Part shown: positions 2,137-34,650 of the stretch, one piece after another
Layout: each line of letters opens with the position of its first letter
Position numbering within the stretch: the first letter of the stretch is position 1
NCBI GenBank assembly: GCA_030693045.1
Contig: JAUYBU010000320.1
Span: 1 to 34,650 of the forward strand
Length of the DNA stretch: 34,650 nucleotides
Reading direction: 5' to 3'
Source of the DNA: Bryobacterales bacterium
Lineage (GTDB): Bacteria; Acidobacteriota; Terriglobia; Bryobacterales; Bryobacteraceae
Translations under genes and position numbers: made by a program
The notes under the pieces: generated by a model
Told to the model about the DNA's origin: nothing
Database searches by the model: none
What the model saw: the letters and a program-made list of their open reading frames with translations, nothing else

Positions 2137-2967
<831 letters not shown>

Positions 2968-3025
2968 GCTTCGATCTTACCAAGCCTCACTCGGCGGCCA
3001 TCGGATAGGGTCCGTCAGGAAAGCA

Positions 3026-3084
3026 CCGCTTGCTGACGCGCGCGGCTCAGTAGAAGTTTCCGAGCCGCGACCGTCAGAAAGCGG
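3026..3084. repeat. Palindromic intergenic repeat, class A (degenerate copy)
   Basis: Arms 3026-3048 and 3062-3084 pair with a few mismatches around a loop of about 13 bases. The right arm carries GAGCCGCGACCGTCAG, which is shared with the two near-perfect palindromes at 23881-23952 and 32099-32166. It sits between the hydrolase stop and the mrp start. This looks like an older, mutated member of a REP-like family. Confidence 0.75.
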
Positions 3085-3093
3085 GCGGAGTGG

Positions 3094-5037
3094 CTATTTC
3101 ATGACGGACTCATAGCTCCAGCGCTGGCGCGCCGATTCGCCGGCGCGCGCCACGTCGCGCTCGATCATGAATCCTTCCGTAACAAGCTGCCGCGCCGCCG
3201 CCAGGCACCTGGCAACGTAGTCGTCGGCGTCTTTGTAGCGCGCCGCCTGTGCGCGCGTGAACGGGAAGAACGACCCGGCCATGCTGTAGAGTTCGTCCGG
3301 CGCGCCGATGGCATCGGTCCGCAAATTCCAGCCGGTGTAAACGCCCAGCGGGACGGCGACGTGCGGCAAGCGCACGCCCGCGATCTCATTGCCATCGGCG
3401 TCCACTTGCGGAACCAGCGTCGGGAACGGGTTCCCGACGCGCGGCGGTTCAAAGGCGACGATGCCCTTGGCGCGAAACTCGGGGCCGTAGTCGGCGCGCC
3501 AGGCGCGATGCATCCGCACGGGAAACGCTACGCCGGGAATCTTCGGGAACTTCACGGATTCCAGCGCGACGAGTTCGCCGCGATCGATGCGCGGATAGCG
3601 CGATGCCGGCGGCTCCTTGCCGCCTGCGATCCAGTTGTTGAGCGCCACCAGCAAGGCGCGCATCAGGGGGCGGAAGTCGTTCGGGTTGCGCAGGTGGCGC
3701 TCGTTCTGCTTGCTCGGCGGAAACGCGCCCGGGCCGTGTTGCGAGCCGGTGATGAAATAGATTCGCGTGTCCTTGAGCGGCTCGACATCGCGGCGGCCAT
3801 CGACGCTGGTATGGATCAACGACGCCGCGCGGCCCCAATATTCGTAGGACCCGTTGGTGTAGAAGATCTTCGGAACGGCCTTGGCGCGGGTGAGCAGGCC
3901 TTCGGTGAGACCGGTTTCGGGATCGGTCTGCGCGGTGTCGGTGAAGGGGAAAATGTCGGTCGGATAGAAGGTGTTCAGGTGCGGGTGGCCGTCGCGCGAG
4001 GCCTGCGCGAAGCGGTGATTGAAGCTGCCGCGCCCGGCTCCGGCCACGTGCGCCCACACGCCGTCGAACACCCGCCGGCCCTGCTCGTCCTGATTGAAGC
4101 CGTAGCAAAGAAACGTCCGCAGAAACCGCCCGCTCTGCGACGTCCCGAAGCCGATGGCGCGCCGGATGTGCCGCCGCTGATCGCCGAGCGGCGTTTCCGC
4201 GCCGCCATACTTGAGAAACGAGATCAGGTCGCGCACCGCCGCCGGGCCCAGGCCAGCCAATACCGGGTCCTGCGCGCGATAGACCACCTCATAGATTTTT
4301 CCCGGTTCGAAACCCGATGGCATCTCGACGTGCTCGCGGTCCGGAAAACGCCACCGATTTCGCGGGACCACGCTGCGCGGGGAGGCGGCGCGATCGCGCA
4401 CCGTAAGCTGCATCGACGGGTCGTCGGGGTCGATCACCGGATACGGAATGTGATCGCGATCGGCGAGCGACTGCACCGTAACGCGCCGGTCGGGAGTGAA
4501 CTCGGCGCGGACCATGCCCGTGACCGGCTGCCCGTCCCGCTTCGCCACCGGCGCGTCGAGACGCAGCAATTCCGGGTTGCGCGGCACGTCCCATTGCCAG
4601 CCCAGCCAGACCAGCGTGTAGCCTTGTTCGAGCAGAAAACGGTCGCCGAAGTGCTCCGGCTGCCGCGGGTCGCGCGCGGAGGTGGCGAGGTTGAAAGTGC
4701 CCAGCATCCCTTTTCCGCCGCGATTGGAGACTTCAAAGAACACCGTGCCGTTGCCCTTGGCCGAATCGCGCGGCATCAACACGTACAGGTCGGCCGAGAA
4801 CTCGACCAAGCCCTTCTGGTTGCGCGGCGCCAGATCGATGTCGGAAATGATGCGATTGGCCGCCAGCTTCGGATCGACGGCGAAGTGCGCCTTGGCGACG
4901 ACCCGCTGGTAGGGCCCCGCCGCGCCCATGCCTTCGCCGTTCAGCACGTCGGAACGGCCGGTGACCTGAATCTCTCTGACTCCGGCCGCCAGGGTTGCGG
5001 CGGCCACTACCGTAAGAACAATCGAACGACCGGGCAT
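3094..5037 (-). CDS. Exported alpha/beta hydrolase (PF20091-like)
   Basis: A 647-residue protein with a hydrophobic N-terminus (VLTVVAAATLAAG) that probably acts as a signal peptide. The overall pattern, from REIQVTGRSDVLNG and GPYQRVVAKAHFAVDP to the C-terminal YVARCLAAARQLVTEGF, matches the alpha/beta hydrolase domain family common in Acidobacteriota (Abhydrolase_10). The nucleophile elbow is GTSQSGR, with Ser300 the likely catalytic serine. The substrate is unknown; members are annotated only as hydrolases or esterases. The gene follows tsaD by 18 bases on the same strand, so they may be co-transcribed, although nothing else links them functionally. Confidence 0.82.
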   Translation of the reverse strand: MPGRSIVLTVVAAATLAAGVREIQVTGRSDVLNGEGMGAAGPYQRVVAKAHFAVDPKLAANRIISDIDLAPRNQKGLVEFSADLYVLMPRDSAKGNGTVFFEVSNRGGKGMLGTFNLATSARDPRQPEHFGDRFLLEQGYTLVWLGWQWDVPRNPELLRLDAPVAKRDGQPVTGMVRAEFTPDRRVTVQSLADRDHIPYPVIDPDDPSMQLTVRDRAASPRSVVPRNRWRFPDREHVEMPSGFEPGKIYEVVYRAQDPVLAGLGPAAVRDLISFLKYGGAETPLGDQRRHIRRAIGFGTSQSGRFLRTFLCYGFNQDEQGRRVFDGVWAHVAGAGRGSFNHRFAQASRDGHPHLNTFYPTDIFPFTDTAQTDPETGLTEGLLTRAKAVPKIFYTNGSYEYWGRAASLIHTSVDGRRDVEPLKDTRIYFITGSQHGPGAFPPSKQNERHLRNPNDFRPLMRALLVALNNWIAGGKEPPASRYPRIDRGELVALESVKFPKIPGVAFPVRMHRAWRADYGPEFRAKGIVAFEPPRVGNPFPTLVPQVDADGNEIAGVRLPHVAVPLGVYTGWNLRTDAIGAPDELYSMAGSFFPFTRAQAARYKDADDYVARCLAAARQLVTEGFMIERDVARAGESARQRWSYESVMK

Positions 5038-5055
5038 GGGAACAATTAGACGAAG

Positions 5056-6138
5056 CTACGACGCCAATGTCAATCCCGCGCTGGCGCCCAGGTCGAGGCC
5101 GGCAAATTCGCCGCGCCGGTACTTGGCGAACGCCGCGGCGGCGATCATCGCGGCGTTGTCGGTGGCCAGTCCCACCGTTGGGAACAGCACGGGGTAGGGA
5201 AACCGCGCCTGCTCGGCCGCGCGGCGCAAGCCCTGGTTGGCGGCCACGCCGCCGGAGACGATCAGCGCGCGGGCGTTGATCTGCTCCCCGGTCAGGCGCA
5301 CCCGGCGCAGCAGTTCTTCGATCACCGTGCGCTGGAACGACGCCAGCAGATCGAGCGTGTCCCGGGGCGTCACCGCCAGCCAATCTTCGGTCGCCGGCCG
5401 CGAATTGCTCTTGAGCAGCGCGCGGCGCGCCTGGATTTCGGCGGCCAGATCGCGCGCTTGGGTCCAGCGAAGCACGGCCGTCTTCAAGCCGCTGAAGCTG
5501 AAGTCCAGCGGGTTGCCTTTCATTTTGGCCAGCGTGAAACGAACCGCGCCGGGGTTGCCGTGGGGCGCCAGCCGGTCGATCACCGGCCCGCCCGGATAGC
5601 CGAAGCCGAGGAGTTTGGCGACCTTGTCGTAGGCTTCCCCGGCGGCGTCGTCGCGTGTCTTTCCGAGCAGCCGGTAGCGCCAGCCCTCGCGCACCTCGAA
5701 CAGGTGCGTGTGGCCGCCGCTGGCCACCAGCGCCAGCGCCGGCAACTCGACCTCCTGCCCGCCGTGCCTGGTCTCCATTACGACGGCGTGGATGTGGCCC
5801 TCGATGTGGTTCACGCCGATCAGCGGCAACCCGTGCGCGAACGACAGCGCCTTCGCGAAGGTCATGCCGACTAGCAAAGAGCCGACCAGGCCCGGTCCGC
5901 AGGTCACCGCCACGGCGCCCAAAGCCGGGTAGCTTGTGCCGGATCGCTCCATCGCCTCGCGCACCACCTGCACGATGGCACGCAGGTGTTCGCGCGAAGC
6001 CAGCTCCGGCACCACGCCGCCGTACTTGCCATGCGTGTCCAGTTGCGAGGCGACCACCGAGGCCAGCAGGTTGATCGAGTCTTCGACCACCGCGGCCGCC
6101 GTCTCGTCGCACGAAGTTTCAATTCCGAGGATGCGCAA
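5056..6138 (-). CDS. tsaD: tRNA N6-adenosine threonylcarbamoyltransferase TsaD
   Basis: A 360-residue member of the Kae1/TsaD/YgjD ASKHA family. It transfers threonylcarbamoyl from TC-AMP to A37 of tRNAs reading ANN codons, together with TsaB and TsaE. The diagnostic N-terminus [16 protein letters not shown] is present. The metal-binding stretch NHIEGHIHA includes His111 and His115. The phosphate-binding [11 protein letters not shown], the SGGHTHL loop and the late ATDNAAMIA are all visible. Length is slightly above the usual 335-345 residues. It is divergent from queA, another tRNA-modification gene, across a long palindrome at 6159-6241. Confidence 0.97.
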
Positions 6139-6158
6139 GTTGTTACCCTGTACCTAGG

Positions 6159-6241
6159 CGAACCCTATTTCGGGGACAGGCTACGAAATCCCGAAATAGG
6201 AGTTTCGGGATTTCGTAGCCTGTCCCCGAAATAGGGGTTCG
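6159..6241. repeat. Long palindromic intergenic repeat, class B
   Basis: A nearly perfect palindrome with arms 6159-6196 and 6203-6241. Each arm contains CCTATTTCGGGGACAGGCTA and then CGAAATCCCGAAA. The two arms differ by a single extra C. It fills almost the whole gap between the divergent tsaD and queA genes and so lies where both promoters should be. It shares the GGGGACAGGC core with the palindrome at 12215-12285. Confidence 0.9.
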
Positions 6242-6251
6242 TCAAGATTCG

Positions 6252-7307
6252 ATGCTGGTCTCTGAATTCGATTATCACCTGCCGGAGGACCGCATTGCCC
6301 AGCGGCCGCTGGAGGATCGCGCGGCGTCGCGGATGCTGGTGGTCCATCGCGACGGCCAGCGCTGGGAGGATCGCCGGTTCCGGGACCTGCCTTCGTTTCT
6401 GGGGCCGGGCGATTGCCTGGCGCTCAACGATTCGCGGGTTTTCCCGGCGCGGCTGTTCGGACATCGAACCGGCGTCCGCTCGCTGCCTATCGGTAAGAAT
6501 AATCCCAAGCGCCGGGAGTATCTTTCCGGCCGCGTGGAGGTCTTTCTCACGCGGCCGATCACCGGCGACCGGCTGACCTGGGAGGCCCTGGTGCGGCCCG
6601 GGCGCAAGATGCGCACCGGCGAGCGAGTGCGTTTTTCCGAAGACCTGGAGGCCGAAATCGTCGCCCGCGGCGAGTACGGCGAACGCACGCTGCGCTTCTA
6701 TCCGGAGGGCGATATCTACCCGCGCCTGGAGCGCCTGGGCCACGTCCCGCTGCCCCCTTACATCCACCGACCGGACGAAGCCGCCGACCGCGAACGTTAC
6801 CAGACGGTCTTCGCGCGCGCGAGCGGTTCGGTCGCCGCGCCGACGGCCGGCCTGCACTTCACCCCGGAAACGCTCGACGCCTGCCGCGCCGCCGGAGCCG
6901 GCCTTGCCTACCTGACCCTGCACGTCGGCCTGGGCACATTTCAGCCGGTGCATACGGAGGTGGTCGAGCGGCACCATCTGCACGCCGAGTGTTTCGAAAT
7001 CAGTGAAGACGCGGCGGCGCGCCTGCGCCAGGCGCGGCGGATCGTCGCCGTCGGCACCACCAGCGTCCGCGCGCTGGAGAGCGCGGGCCTGCAGGCCGCT
7101 CACGGCGAAACCGGCATCTTCATCTACCCGGGCTACCAGTTCCGCGCCGTGGGAGCGATGTTGACCAACTTCCACCTGCCGAAATCGAGCCTGCTGATGC
7201 TGGTCTGCGCGTTTGCCGGCAAAGACCTGACCCTGGCGGCGTACGGCCACGCCGTCGAAGCCGGCTACCGCTTCTACTCCTACGGCGATTGCATGCTGGT
7301 TCTATGA
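6252..7307 (+). CDS. queA: S-adenosylmethionine:tRNA ribosyltransferase-isomerase QueA
   Basis: A 351-residue QueA, which makes epoxyqueuosine by moving the ribosyl part of SAM to 7-aminomethyl-7-deazaguanine in tRNA. Recognisable parts are the N-terminus [19 protein letters not shown], the segment [12 protein letters not shown], the SAM-site region [37 protein letters not shown], and [19 protein letters not shown]. An insertion after RLFG (about residues 77-97) is tolerated in the family. The start at 6252 has only a weak ribosome-binding site and lies 10 bases beyond a large palindrome. The next gene begins 7 bases after the stop. Confidence 0.96.
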
Positions 7308-7314
7308 TGGATCT

Positions 7315-7929
7315 ATGAGCGTTCGCCGCTGGCTGCTACTGTTCGCGATGCTGACGGCGGTGTGCGCGCCCGCGCAGGTCATCGAATTCGAGTCCGGCGG
7401 CCTGAAGTACCAGACCCTCACCCGGCGCGGCATCACCATCATGTACGCCCACCTGCCCACGCGCCTGCGCCAATGGGCGATTATCCAACTGGCAGCCTCG
7501 AACGGTTCGCCGCTGGAGTGCGCCATTCTGCCCGACACCCTCGAATACCGGCGCAAGGACGGAACCGTGCTGCGGGCGGACACGGCCAACGCGGTGGTCA
7601 AGTCGCTGATCGAACGCGCCGGGCGCAACGACGTGGTCCGCGTGGTGTCGGCTTACGAACTGGGGTTGTACGGCATGCAGCGGTTCAAGTCCACCAACGG
7701 CTATGAGCAGCGGCGTCAGTCGGCGCTCGCGGAAGTCTCCTCGGCGAAGCTGAAAGCGGCCGCGGCCGCATCCGCCATCGCCTTTGTGCCGGCCAAGCTC
7801 AAGCCCGGCGAATCGACCGACGGCGCCGTGTTTTTTCCGACCGCGGGCAAGCCGCTGGGAGCGGGCCGGCTGGTGATGAAGGCGGCCGGCGAGATCTTCG
7901 AATTCGACGCCGAGACGGCCGGACCGTAG
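7315..7929 (+). CDS. Small exported protein of unknown function
   Basis: A 204-residue protein not assigned to a named family. The N-terminus MSVRRWLLLFAMLTAVCAPAQ is a good signal peptide, probably cleaved after the APA-Q region, so a periplasmic or secreted location is likely. The mature part starts with a beta-rich stretch (VIEFESGGLKYQTLTRRGIT), has an alanine-rich helix around residues 140-160, and ends with a beta-strand segment that would suit a small extracytoplasmic domain. It starts 7 bases after queA and is likely read from the same transcript. The stop lies 4 bases from the end of the converging vapC remnant. Confidence 0.7.
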   Translation: MSVRRWLLLFAMLTAVCAPAQVIEFESGGLKYQTLTRRGITIMYAHLPTRLRQWAIIQLAASNGSPLECAILPDTLEYRRKDGTVLRADTANAVVKSLIERAGRNDVVRVVSAYELGLYGMQRFKSTNGYEQRRQSALAEVSSAKLKAAAAASAIAFVPAKLKPGESTDGAVFFPTAGKPLGAGRLVMKAAGEIFEFDAETAGP

Positions 7930-23887: not shown

Positions 23888-23952
23888 CCGCTCCCTGACG
23901 GTCGCGGCTCAGTACCGTTTCCGAGCCGCGACCGTCAGGGAGCGGTCACTGT
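23881..23952. repeat. Palindromic repeat, class A, shared by two gene ends
   Basis: A perfect palindrome with 30-base arms (23881-23910 and 23923-23952) and a 12-base loop. Each arm contains GACCGCTCCCTGACGGTCGC and then GGCTC. The left arm includes the stop of the GH10 gene; the right arm supplies the last codons and stop (VTAP, TGA) of the converging glycosyltransferase gene. No T-tract follows either arm. Confidence 0.95.

Positions 23953-29519: not shown

Positions 29520-29523
<4 letters not shown>
28906..29523 (-). CDS. Lipoprotein with two tandem Ig-like repeats
   Basis: A 205-residue protein with a clear lipobox (LALSGC, Cys15) after MRMVALLAVLA. Two homologous domains follow. The first, about residues 35-110, has ILHFYAYPAAISKGEHARIC and later CFEIGPQRTTEYVLSAED. 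The second, about 127-205, has ITSFTASAQQISREETVTLC and later CFGHAPERNTTYRLTATG. Each has two cysteines likely to pair, and the layout resembles bacterial Ig-like beta-sandwiches. They are joined by an Ala/Pro/Lys linker. The ATG overlaps the stop of the sigma-54 activator gene (ATGA), so the two are translationally coupled. No enzyme motif is seen. Confidence 0.78.
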
Positions 29524-30863
<1,340 letters not shown>

Positions 30864-31342: not shown

Positions 31343-31357
31343 TGGCTATCGGATTGC
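31343..31357 (+). promoter_or_regulatory. Sigma-54 (-24/-12) promoter
   Basis: TGGC at 31343-31346 and TTGC at 31354-31357 have exactly the spacing of the consensus TGGCAC-N5-TTGC, followed by T. Transcription would begin near 31369. That leaves only about 11 bases before the ATG at 31380 but includes the GGAG ribosome-binding site at 31371. The divergent gene encodes a sigma-54 activator, which supports the call. Confidence 0.72.
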
Positions 31358-31379
31358 TCACCGACTTGGCGGAGATCTA

Positions 31380-31601
31380 ATGACCAAGCTGAAATTCGCC
31401 GTTCCTGTTCTTATTTTTGTCGGTGGACTGATTTCGACCACCACCATGTCGTTCGGCAAGGCTGAATACACCAAGAAAGAGAAGAAGGCCTGCGTCTTTT
31501 GCCACGTCAAGGCTACCTCGAAGGAGTTGAACGAGGCCGGCAAGCACTACAAAGAGAAGAAGACTCTGGAGGGGTACACAGCGCCGGAGAAGAAGGGCTA
31601 G
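31380..31601 (+). CDS. Small monoheme c-type cytochrome
   Basis: A 73-residue protein with an N-terminal hydrophobic leader (KLKFAVPVLIFVGGLISTTT) for export and one heme-binding motif CVFCH (Cys38-His42). A Lys-rich tail follows (KELNEAGKHYKEKKTLEGY), and His51-like GKHY could provide the second axial ligand region. The mature protein of about 50 residues is very small for a cytochrome c. It is the first gene behind the sigma-54 promoter and probably shuttles electrons in the periplasm. Confidence 0.82.
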   Translation: MTKLKFAVPVLIFVGGLISTTTMSFGKAEYTKKEKKACVFCHVKATSKELNEAGKHYKEKKTLEGYTAPEKKG

Positions 31602-31631
31602 GTTGAGTTGGTTCGGGCTCAGCCCGAGTGT

Positions 31632-32000
31632 ATGGACACGATTCAGGTTGCCATCAACGATGCTCCTTATGCGGCGGCGCTGAGGGAGTTATTGGAGCGC
31701 AACGGGTCCTGGGAGGTTCTCTGTGTGGACCGGCCGGACCCCGATCGCGACGGGGTGATGGTGCTCGACTCGGAACATCTGGGGTTTCTTCGGCAGCCGA
31801 TCTCCAATCCCGAGAGAGTAGTACTGATTGCGGGGAACAATTCCGGCGATCTGGCCCGGGCTTGGGAGGCGGGCGTGAATTCCGTCATTACGGACAAGGA
31901 TCCGCTGAATACGGCCATGCTTGCGATCATGGCGGCGCGGCTCAGAGCGGGCAAGGGTCTGCATTCCGGCTCGGTTAAGGGTTCCCCCGGGCGGCCGTAG
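31632..32000 (+). CDS. Receiver-like protein of unknown function
   Basis: A 122-residue protein from ATG 31632; a TTG at 31608 would add eight residues. Neither start has a good ribosome-binding site. The alpha/beta pattern resembles a response-regulator receiver: IQVAINDAPYAAALRELLER, then VMVLDSEHLGFL, VVLIAGNN, AWEAGVNSVITDKDPL. Asp in MVLDSEH could be the phospho-acceptor and Lys in TDKDP the conserved lysine, but the acidic pocket near the N-terminus is reduced, so it may be a degenerate receiver. It lies 30 bases after the monoheme cytochrome gene and is probably in the same operon. No output domain is present. Confidence 0.6.
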   Translation: MDTIQVAINDAPYAAALRELLERNGSWEVLCVDRPDPDRDGVMVLDSEHLGFLRQPISNPERVVLIAGNNSGDLARAWEAGVNSVITDKDPLNTAMLAIMAARLRAGKGLHSGSVKGSPGRP

Positions 32001-32098
32001 GCGCTTCAGAAGTCATACTCCGCTTGTGGTTGTTGCTGCTATAGTTGGGTGGGCGCAAGTAGGGGCCGGTCGGGAAATAGCCGTTTCGGGCGGCAAAC

Positions 32099-32166
32099 TC
32101 CGCTCCCTGACGGTCGCGGCTCGGAAACTGCTTGCCGCTACCGAGCCGCGACCGTCAGGGAGCGGA
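32099..32166. repeat. Palindromic intergenic repeat, class A
   Basis: Perfect 26-base arms (32099-32124 and 32141-32166) with a 16-base loop. Each arm contains CCGCTCCCTGACGGTCGCGG, the same core as at 23881-23952. It separates the receiver-like gene from the nine-heme cytochrome gene and could reduce read-through or stabilise the upstream transcript. Confidence 0.93.
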
Positions 32167-32266
32167 CAATCGCGGCTGCCAGCCCTGGGCATGCCCGCCC
32201 GGCCACGGGAGCAGCGAGCCGTGAACCTTGCGCCGTGGGCGATCGGTTTGGCAAGAGCGAGCTAGC

Positions 32267-34000
32267 ATGGGTCTGTGGGCAAAACGAGGAGTGTATCTGT
32301 CGATTCTTGAGCGTATCCCGGGGCGATCCGGCGGTTGGGCCGCGGCTGTCGCGCCGCTTGCACTGCTGATTTTTCTGTCGACCTTCCCGGCGCGGGCGCA
32401 GGAGGCCGGCGCGGACGTTTGCGCGTCCTGCCACGAGCAGGGACAGAAGCTGAAAGCCTCGATTCACGCGGGTCTGGGCTGCTCCGGCTGCCACGAGAAA
32501 CACGAGAAATACCCGCACCCGGCCAACGCGCCCAAGCCGGCTTGCACCACCTGCCACTCGCCGCAGGTCCGGGATTACTCGATGGGCGTGCACGGGCGCG
32601 CGGTCAAGGCGGGAAACCAGGCCGCGCCGGACTGCTCGATGTGCCACGGCGACGTGCACCAGACCGCCTCCGCCAGAACCGAGGCTTTTCGCAAGGCGGA
32701 GCCGGAAACCTGCGGCATGTGCCACGACAAAGTGGTTGCCGAATTCAAGGCCAGCGTGCATGGCAAGGCGGTCGAACGGGGGGTGAAGGACGCGCCGTTG
32801 TGCACCAACTGTCATGGCGAGCACAGCATCCTGCCGCACAAGGACGTGGCCTCGTCGGTCAGCGCCGCCCACGTCTCGGAAACTTGCGCCCGTTGCCACG
32901 GCGACGTCCGCCTGTCGCGCAAGTTCGGCCTGCCGCCGGACCGCATCACCAGCTTCGACTCTTCCTTCCACGGTCTGGCGTCCAAGTCCGGATCGCAGAC
33001 CGTGGCCAACTGCGCCAGTTGTCACGGAGTCCACGGCATCCTGGCTTCGAGCGACCCGAAATCGATGATCAACGCCAGGAACCTGCCGGCCACTTGCGGA
33101 AAATGCCACCCCGGCGCCGGCTCGCGTTTCGCGCTCGGCTCGATTCACCTCGTCCAGGGGGCGCGGGAGCCGGACCTGCTGCGTTGGGCGCGGATCTTCT
33201 ATCTCACCCTGATTCCCGTCACCATCGGCCTGATGTTGCTGCACCACGGCGGCGACTGGATCCGCAAGCTGATTTATCTGCGCCTGAAGGCACAGCCCGT
33301 GAAGGCCTGGCGGCCCATGCCGCCTGGGCCGCCCGAGATCCGCATGTTCCTGGCCGAGCGCCTCCAGCACGCCCTGCTTGCGGTTTCCTTTATCGTTCTG
33401 GTCTGGACCGGTTTCGCGCTGAAGTATCCGGAGCAGTGGTGGGCCCGTCCGCTGGTGGTCTGGGAGGGAAGCTGGCCGGTGCGCGGCACCATTCACCGTA
33501 TCGCGGCGGCCGTCATGGTGGCCGTTACGGTTCTTCACGCCCTTTCACTGGCGGCCAGCCGCCGGCTGCGGGAGCACTGGAAAACGCTCCTGCCGGTCAA
33601 GGCCGACATCTACGAGGGTTTCGCGGGCCTGTCTTACGCGCTTGGCCTGCGCGACAAGCCCGTGATCTCGGCCCACAGCTACGTCGAAAAGGCCGAATAC
33701 TGGGCCGTGGCCTGGGGCACAGTGGTCATGGGGCTGACCGGCGTCCTGCTGTGGGCCAACAACTGGGCCCTTAAGTTCCTGCCCAAGGTCTGGCTCGACC
33801 TGGCGACCACGATTCACTTCTATGAGGCCGTTCTGGCCGCGCTGTCCATCGTAGTCTGGCACTTTTACAGCGTGATCTTCGATCCCGACGTCTACCCCCT
33901 GGATCCCGCCTTTCTCACCGGCGTGAGCGTCCGGACGAGAGAATCGCATCCGCACGCGCCGGCGGGAAAGCCAACCCGCGGGTCCGGGGAATCCGCATGA
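32267..34000 (+). CDS. Nine-heme c-type / b-type cytochrome fusion, CbcL-like
   Basis: A 577-residue inner-membrane protein with its heme domain in the periplasm. A long signal or anchor (about residues 22-44, ending PARAQ) precedes nine CxxCH motifs starting at Cys52, 72, 93, 123, 149, 179, 207, 249 and 277. A b-type cytochrome domain follows from about 305, with about five transmembrane helices. Histidines in or near them include His326/327, 368, 410, 424, 517 and 532, several of which are probably b-heme ligands. Nine c hemes fused to a diheme b domain is the layout of Geobacter CbcL, which passes quinol electrons to periplasmic carriers during metal reduction. ATG 32267 is preferred; TTG 32228 is possible. 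The stop overlaps the next ATG. Confidence 0.9.
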   Translation: MGLWAKRGVYLSILERIPGRSGGWAAAVAPLALLIFLSTFPARAQEAGADVCASCHEQGQKLKASIHAGLGCSGCHEKHEKYPHPANAPKPACTTCHSPQVRDYSMGVHGRAVKAGNQAAPDCSMCHGDVHQTASARTEAFRKAEPETCGMCHDKVVAEFKASVHGKAVERGVKDAPLCTNCHGEHSILPHKDVASSVSAAHVSETCARCHGDVRLSRKFGLPPDRITSFDSSFHGLASKSGSQTVANCASCHGVHGILASSDPKSMINARNLPATCGKCHPGAGSRFALGSIHLVQGAREPDLLRWARIFYLTLIPVTIGLMLLHHGGDWIRKLIYLRLKAQPVKAWRPMPPGPPEIRMFLAERLQHALLAVSFIVLVWTGFALKYPEQWWARPLVVWEGSWPVRGTIHRIAAAVMVAVTVLHALSLAASRRLREHWKTLLPVKADIYEGFAGLSYALGLRDKPVISAHSYVEKAEYWAVAWGTVVMGLTGVLLWANNWALKFLPKVWLDLATTIHFYEAVLAALSIVVWHFYSVIFDPDVYPLDPAFLTGVSVRTRESHPHAPAGKPTRGSGESA

Positions 34001-34650
34001 GGCGGATCGGCACAGGGTGGCTCCTGGGGGCCCTGATCGTGTCGGCGCCGGATCTGGCCGGCCAAAAGGTCCAGCCGCCGCTGCCCGGTTCCGAGGAGTG
34101 CGCCAACTGCCACGACAGCGGCCGCCGGACCGGCAAGCGGGAGCCCGGCGTTCCGCAGCCGTTCGACCAGGCGGCGCTGCGGGCCTCCCCCCACGCCGCG
34201 CTGGAGTGCGCCGCCTGTCACACCGGCGTCGACGTGAAGAAGCTGCCGCACGCCGAGAAGCTCGAACGCGTGGCGTGCGGGAATTGCCACCCCGACCAGC
34301 AGACGCAGCACTCCGAGAGCCTCCATGGCAAGGCCACCGGGAAGGGCGATGCGCTGGCGCCGTCCTGCTCCACCTGTCACGGAGCGCACAACGTCCTGGC
34401 GCGCTCGGCGCCGCGTTCTCCGATTTCGACCATGGAGATTCCGCGCTTGTGCGGGCGCTGCCACCGCGAAGGGTCCGACGTCTCCAGGACGCACGCGATC
34501 CCGCAGGAGAACATCCTGGGCAACTACATGGACAGCATCCACGGCGAGGGCCTGTTCAAACGCGGCCTCACCGTGACGGCGGTCTGCACCAGTTGCCACA
34601 CCTCGCATTTCGCGCTGCCTCACACCGACCCGCGCTCGTCGATTTCCAAG
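33997..34650 (+). CDS. Multiheme c-type cytochrome (3' end beyond the window)
   Basis: An open frame from ATG 33997, overlapping the previous stop (ATGA), that continues to the window end: 218 residues visible. A signal peptide (WLLGALIVSAPDLAGQ) is followed by six CxxCH motifs starting at Cys35, 71, 94, 124, 152 and 197. The IHGEGL and SLHGKA segments are typical of the cytochrome c3-like multiheme family. It is translationally coupled to the CbcL-like gene, so the two products probably form one electron-transfer path. The total heme number and C-terminal location signals cannot be seen. Confidence 0.88.
   Translation, partial: MRRIGTGWLLGALIVSAPDLAGQKVQPPLPGSEECANCHDSGRRTGKREPGVPQPFDQAALRASPHAALECAACHTGVDVKKLPHAEKLERVACGNCHPDQQTQHSESLHGKATGKGDALAPSCSTCHGAHNVLARSAPRSPISTMEIPRLCGRCHREGSDVSRTHAIPQENILGNYMDSIHGEGLFKRGLTVTAVCTSCHTSHFALPHTDPRSSISK

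Follow-up and report, generated by a model that had tools for sequence, protein, structure and literature searches.

A CbcL-like nine-heme cytochrome locus of Bryobacteraceae with a conserved sigma-54 promoter and a probable link to extracellular electron transfer

How might a member of the Bryobacteraceae (Acidobacteriota) move electrons from quinol in its inner membrane to an acceptor outside the cell? The question is raised by one end of contig C566 of genome G000, analysed here over its entire 34,650 bp (the window), where a gene encodes P0001, a nine-heme c-type cytochrome domain fused to a b-type membrane domain. The original prediction, made from the letters of the sequence, had placed the DNA in an acidobacterium, an origin confirmed by its assignment to the Bryobacteraceae, and had proposed a locus of the CbcL type. 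Linkage, co-occurrence and homology indicate that the locus quite probably encodes an inducible module which oxidises quinol at the inner membrane and supplies electrons to extracellular electron transfer (EET). The contig ends at 34650, so the downstream context was read from relatives, the sister species G001 among them.

The two halves of P0001 lie in one open reading frame. The N-terminal c domain carries nine CXXCH motifs at residues 52-281, and the C-terminal b domain, of the FdnI/HydC type, spans residues ~303-540 and matches Ni_hydr_CYTB/cytochrome b561 in Pfam (E 6e-10); the fusion that had been predicted is thus borne out. All nine heme motifs are invariant in 22 homologues, and the c domain has exactly nine further invariant histidines (67, 84, 109, 131, 165, 186, 235, 256 and 294). 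By sequence, these nine and the nine motif histidines are what bis-His ligation of all nine c-hemes would lead one to expect. For the nine bis-His hemes of CbcL itself, ten conserved histidines of this kind are described (PMC9129911). In the b domain of P0001, His 326, 368, 410, 424, 517 and 532 are invariant. Hydropathy and the AlphaFold model (mean pLDDT 77.7) agree on an N-terminal signal helix and, in the C-terminal half, on five long helices.

Comparison of the b domain with the HydC/FdnI and NrfD-like families, a check that the original prediction had proposed, favours the former. The top solved match of the P0001 model in Foldseek is FdnI (1kqf_C, E 3.5e-3, TM-score 0.66 by target length) and hydrogenase-1 cytochrome b falls within the top ten; no NrfD-like match stands near the top, and an NrfD-like b domain was rejected. 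The b domain of P0001 shares both fold (1kqf_C, 4gd3, 6g94) and Pfam family with FdnI, the gamma subunit of formate dehydrogenase N, and with HyaC/HydC. P0001 differs from them in the fused nine-heme domain, in one extra transmembrane helix before the FdnI-like core, and in a locus where no dehydrogenase or hydrogenase subunits were recognised. Set against the published description of Geobacter sulfurreducens CbcL (GSU0274), a nine-heme bis-His domain joined to a HydC/FdnI-like diheme b domain (PMC9129911, PMC6295460), this architecture supports the CbcL-like assignment. The surroundings of P0001 differ from those of CbcL: a 19-heme paralogue lies beside it here and an ImcH-like protein is encoded next to it in relatives, and its gene is preceded by a conserved sigma-54 promoter and a divergently transcribed activator whose PAS domain bears four cysteines (PAS-Cys4).

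The ImcH-like neighbour places a second kind of predicted quinol oxidase beside the nine-heme protein. Counts were taken over 70 distinct nine-heme loci, 67 of them with enough flank to judge adjacency: a same-strand ImcH-like gene adjoins the nine-heme gene in 50 of the 67 and stands elsewhere in the locus in 7 more. Where it directly follows the CbcL-like gene the spacing runs from overlap to 49 bp, and in most cases the genes overlap or lie within 50 bp of each other. The protein (~480 aa) has three N-terminal transmembrane helices, a CX3CH motif, five CX2CH motifs and a NapC/NirT match in Pfam; the six motifs recur in 21/21 ImcH-like proteins, and the members checked each show three hydrophobic segments near the N terminus. 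On sequence it carries every element of the published ImcH signature, namely three N-terminal transmembrane helices, an atypical CX3CH, 5-9 CX2CH and NapC/NirT similarity (PMC6295460). As in Geobacter ImcH, the CX3CH lies next to the third transmembrane helix; the relatives' proteins have five CX2CH, whereas that of Geobacter has six (published range 5-9). They differ further from ImcH in that their gene adjoins a CbcL-like gene and in that MtrA-like genes lie nearby in some loci, whereas in a survey of 2018 imcH never had mtrAB as a neighbour (PMC6295460). Ignavibacteria and other members of the Acidobacteriota also group ImcH-like, 19-heme and longer CbcL-like genes together. NrfA was considered for this five-heme neighbour and rejected on the N-terminal NapC/NirT match and the ImcH features. 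Downstream genes for nitrite or sulfite reduction had been named at the outset as the finding that would count against a CbcL-type locus; inspection of the loci brought up no recognisable gene for a nitrite or sulfite reductase, and the neighbour in relatives is ImcH-like.

Two other genes recur in the loci of relatives. The ImcH-like gene is often succeeded by one for a protein of ~290 aa (L058, L060, L062, L071, L073, L080), which in L060 is a tandem universal stress protein. A Cys-rich protein of ~130-160 aa (X2), with repeated ICSVC...C and no Pfam match, is encoded within L057 (15653-16135) and about 23 other loci.

Coupling of P0001 to a second multiheme cytochrome had been predicted, and is seen in an ATGA at 33997-34000, where the stop codon of P0001 (TGA) overlaps the start codon of P0002 (ATG). 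The fragment of P0002 that the contig retains is 82% identical to the start of a full-length counterpart in the sister species (L056 6472-9270), a protein of 932 aa with 19 CXXCH and its own FdnI-like b domain. P0002 is therefore assigned by homology as the N-terminal part of a ~930-aa protein with 19 hemes and a b domain. A quick tree built from b domains sets the 19-heme proteins apart in their own clade (100% support), distinct from that of the CbcL-like proteins.

The distribution of the module points to the outer membrane. A survey of 237 Bryobacteraceae genomes found the nine-heme CbcL-like gene in 101. In raw genome counts, kinship ignored, an MtrC-family decaheme (TIGR03507) occurs in 98/101 genomes with the CbcL-like gene and in 69/136 without it, and an ImcH-like gene in 98/101 and 66/136, respectively. 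In the genome of the window, contig C560 carries adjacent genes of the MtrC, MtrA and MtrB kinds, as in conduits of the MtrCAB/PioAB type; the OmcA/MtrC decaheme scores 500 bits (cut-off 209) and the DmsE/MtrA decaheme 250 (cut-off 192). The porin is very divergent from the Pfam model. One carrier with a described physiology, Paludibaculum fermentans P105T, has the activator, receiver-like, CbcL-like and ImcH-like genes together with the MtrC family, and is a fermentative Fe(III) reducer (PMC8407742). A look to the right of the window for porin-cytochrome or outer-surface cytochrome genes had been proposed; read through relatives, some loci have decaheme MtrA-like cytochromes beside the module, and in most no porin gene was recognised there. 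Two of the profiles used were of limited value: MtrA (TIGR03508) is uninformative as a marker because it matched in all 61 relatives, and Pfam MtrB (PF11854), found in few relatives, misses divergent porins, since those beside MtrA-like genes in L064, L076 and L179 went unmatched.

The module is preceded by elements that suggest how it is switched on (Table 1). The motif TGGN7ATTGCW occurs in 38/41 distinct activator-to-operon intergenic regions (12.6 kb in total), where ~0.5 would be expected at 0.043 per kb, and in 0/41 on the opposite strand of the same regions. The spacing of its -24 GG and -12 GC, its conservation and the nearby activator P0004 answer to what defines a sigma-54-dependent promoter, and it is predicted to be one. 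The original prediction of a tiny monoheme cytochrome under sigma-54 control at the head of the locus accordingly stands as far as the CVFCH gene (31380-31601) and the promoter motif are concerned. No second sigma-54 site was found between P0005 and P0001 in the window, and a scan of the operon for a terminator or a sigma-70 promoter gave none that was convincing.

Table 1. Positions of the features discussed (window coordinates unless another contig is named)
Feature	Position	Strand	Basis or remarks
PAS - sigma-54 AAA+ - Fis-type HTH activator P0004, 447 aa from ATG	29520-30863	-	Pfam; divergent
Predicted sigma-54 (-24/-12) promoter TGGCTATCGGATTGCT	31343-31358	+	21 nt before monoheme ATG; conserved TGGN7ATTGCW
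Small secreted monoheme c-type cytochrome P0003, 73 aa	31380-31601	+	one CVFCH; no Pfam family
Stand-alone receiver-like (REC fold) protein P0005, 122 aa	31632-32000	+	AlphaFold pLDDT 86, Foldseek; no Pfam hit
REP-type palindrome, 26-bp arms	32099-32166	.	-66.7 kcal/mol, z -10.6
CbcL-like inner-membrane cytochrome P0001, 577 aa	32267-34000	+	CXXCH motifs, Pfam, AlphaFold, Foldseek, alignments
Second multiheme cytochrome P0002, cut at contig end	33997-34650	+	6 CXXCH in N-terminal 218 aa
MtrC-, MtrA- and MtrB-like gene trio, window's genome	G000:C560 (L180) 2643-7813		profile matches, side by side

P0004 matches Sigma54_activat (E 2e-69), HTH_8 and PAS in Pfam. Its PAS domain contains the motif C-X5-C-X2-C-X3-C, present in 49/49 close homologues and in 0/8 of the distant activators that these loci encode; the domain may be a sensor of the thiol, metal or Fe-S kind. 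In the sister species a MauG/MbnH-like diheme protein adjoins the activator. Homologues of the monoheme P0003 were found in 26/61 relatives, upstream of the nine-heme gene in 25/70 distinct loci, and a gene of the P0005 type is upstream in 46/70. The best Foldseek match of P0005 is the receiver of DctD (E 5.5e-5, TM-score 0.71), a sigma-54 activator; Asp46 is invariant in the alignment, but the usual conserved lysine of REC domains is absent. Because P0004 is without a receiver domain, P0005 may, speculatively, act on it in trans.

From these elements we infer the following path. An inducing condition, probably limitation of oxygen or acceptor, would be read by the four-Cys PAS of P0004, upon which RNA polymerase-sigma-54 would fire at 31343-31358. 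P0001 would then draw electrons from (mena)quinol at its FdnI-type diheme b domain and pass them along its nine bis-His c-hemes into the periplasm, and the 19-heme paralogue and an ImcH-like partner, expected past the contig end, would offer further quinol-oxidising routes. Electrons would reach outer-membrane conduits of the MtrA/MtrB/MtrC type encoded elsewhere in the genome and finally Fe(III), humics or another outside acceptor. The regulated path from quinol to metals or another outer acceptor that had been proposed is in keeping with the linkage, the MtrC/MtrA/MtrB-like set and the Fe(III)-reducing carrier; these leave outward flow and the nature of the acceptor as likely rather than observed.

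Several observations weigh against such a module. The P0001 model has five transmembrane helices in its C-terminal half, whereas CbcL has been described with six (PMC6295460); the family criteria used for CbcL/MtoC/MtrH were 3-23 CX2CH (9 in CbcL) and six C-terminal transmembrane helices in most members, with 4-5 in a few, besides the genetic criterion that EET to low-potential acceptors depends on the protein. A search of the window's assembly (91.7% complete) returned no ImcH-like gene. In the sister species, however, contig C317 stops just past the 19-heme gene and the ImcH-like gene begins another contig, C477, while L065 has the order nine-heme, 19-heme, ImcH-like; because of these contig ends and this order, the gene of the window species probably lies in an assembly gap beyond the 19-heme gene. 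On the side of the outer membrane, MtrC-family genes are found in half of the genomes that have no CbcL-like gene, the set on C560 is unlinked to the locus, and its MtrB/PioB porin, at 23.4 bits, is barely above the cut-off of 23. Lastly, a strong palindrome separates P0005 from P0001 and may interrupt the operon or weaken its transcription. It occupies the place of X1 in relatives, a ~95-aa protein with two transmembrane helices encoded in 61 loci, including that of the sister species (L056 4459-4764), and directly preceding the CbcL-like gene wherever this was looked at; X1 had no convincing match in the window (32000-32266) or its genome. Since the palindrome could attenuate transcription into P0001, sigma-54 control of the large cytochromes is putative in this genome. 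The REP-like element CTCCCTGACGGTCGCGGCTCGG lies at three places in the window (3060-3081, 23891-23942 and 32103-32162), twice as an inverted pair, with 5 copies at up to 3 mismatches and 0 expected.

The points on linkage also lend something to the more durable of two rival explanations, namely that the quinol oxidase serves soluble periplasmic reductases or cytochrome peroxidases and that the outer-membrane conduits belong to other pathways. CymA-like quinol dehydrogenases do serve several acceptors (PMC6295460), most loci lack a recognised porin gene beside the module, as the window's genome lacks a linked outer-membrane set, and the MauG/MbnH-like gene stands next to the sister species' activator. 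No periplasmic reductase gene is consistently linked, however, and the strong co-occurrence with the MtrC and ImcH families, together with the decaheme MtrA-like cytochromes of some loci, makes this explanation unlikely. Inward flow, by which a quinone reductase of the MtoC/MtrH kind and an MtrAB-type conduit would oxidise Fe(II) or another outside donor, is very improbable: Fe(III) reducers and Fe(II) oxidisers alike do have CbcL/MtoC/MtrH homologues, whose sequences show nothing that tells the directions apart (PMC6295460), but the usual neighbour here resembles ImcH, which to date has been linked to quinol oxidation alone (PMC6295460), and P. fermentans, the single described species identified among the carriers, ferments and reduces Fe(III).

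Within the preferred reading, a quinol-oxidation module feeding EET, the core enzymes are of known kinds, and what is new lies in the gene arrangement and the regulatory parts: the CbcL-ImcH pairing, the 19-heme paralogue, the receiver-like protein and sigma-54/PAS-Cys4 control. It is conceivable, though we would lean against it, that the Bryobacteraceae operon is a sigma-54-switched redox gearbox that joins two quinol oxidases (three with the 19-heme protein), a receiver-like protein and a PAS-Cys4 activator; were this so, it would contrast with Geobacter, which keeps such quinol oxidases at separate loci for different redox potentials. Acidobacteria of the Bryobacteraceae/Solibacter type are common in soils and wetlands, yet their EET is little studied, and most of what is known of their iron respiration comes from P. 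fermentans. With its defined promoter and activator, the conserved CbcL-ImcH locus would provide a genetic marker and a testable quinol-to-metal route for the family. It also suggests that the Acidobacteria have far more CbcL-like proteins than was apparent in 2018, when a survey counted two homologues (PMC6295460).

Some minor observations concern other cytochromes and the naming of loci. The window's genome encodes a second cytochrome pair on contig C125 (L088, 11667-15002), a 9-heme protein of 740 aa and a 5-heme protein resembling ExtKL. Three loci, L121, L142 and L148, are filed under metagenome-assembled genomes of Arcobacter, Acidimicrobiia and Bacillota, yet look acidobacterial and are probably misbinned or misnamed: in the b-domain tree L121 branches within the Bryobacteraceae clade and L148 beside a Terriglobia row, and the genes and scores of L142 are the same as those of the locus in G031, a member of the Bryobacteraceae.

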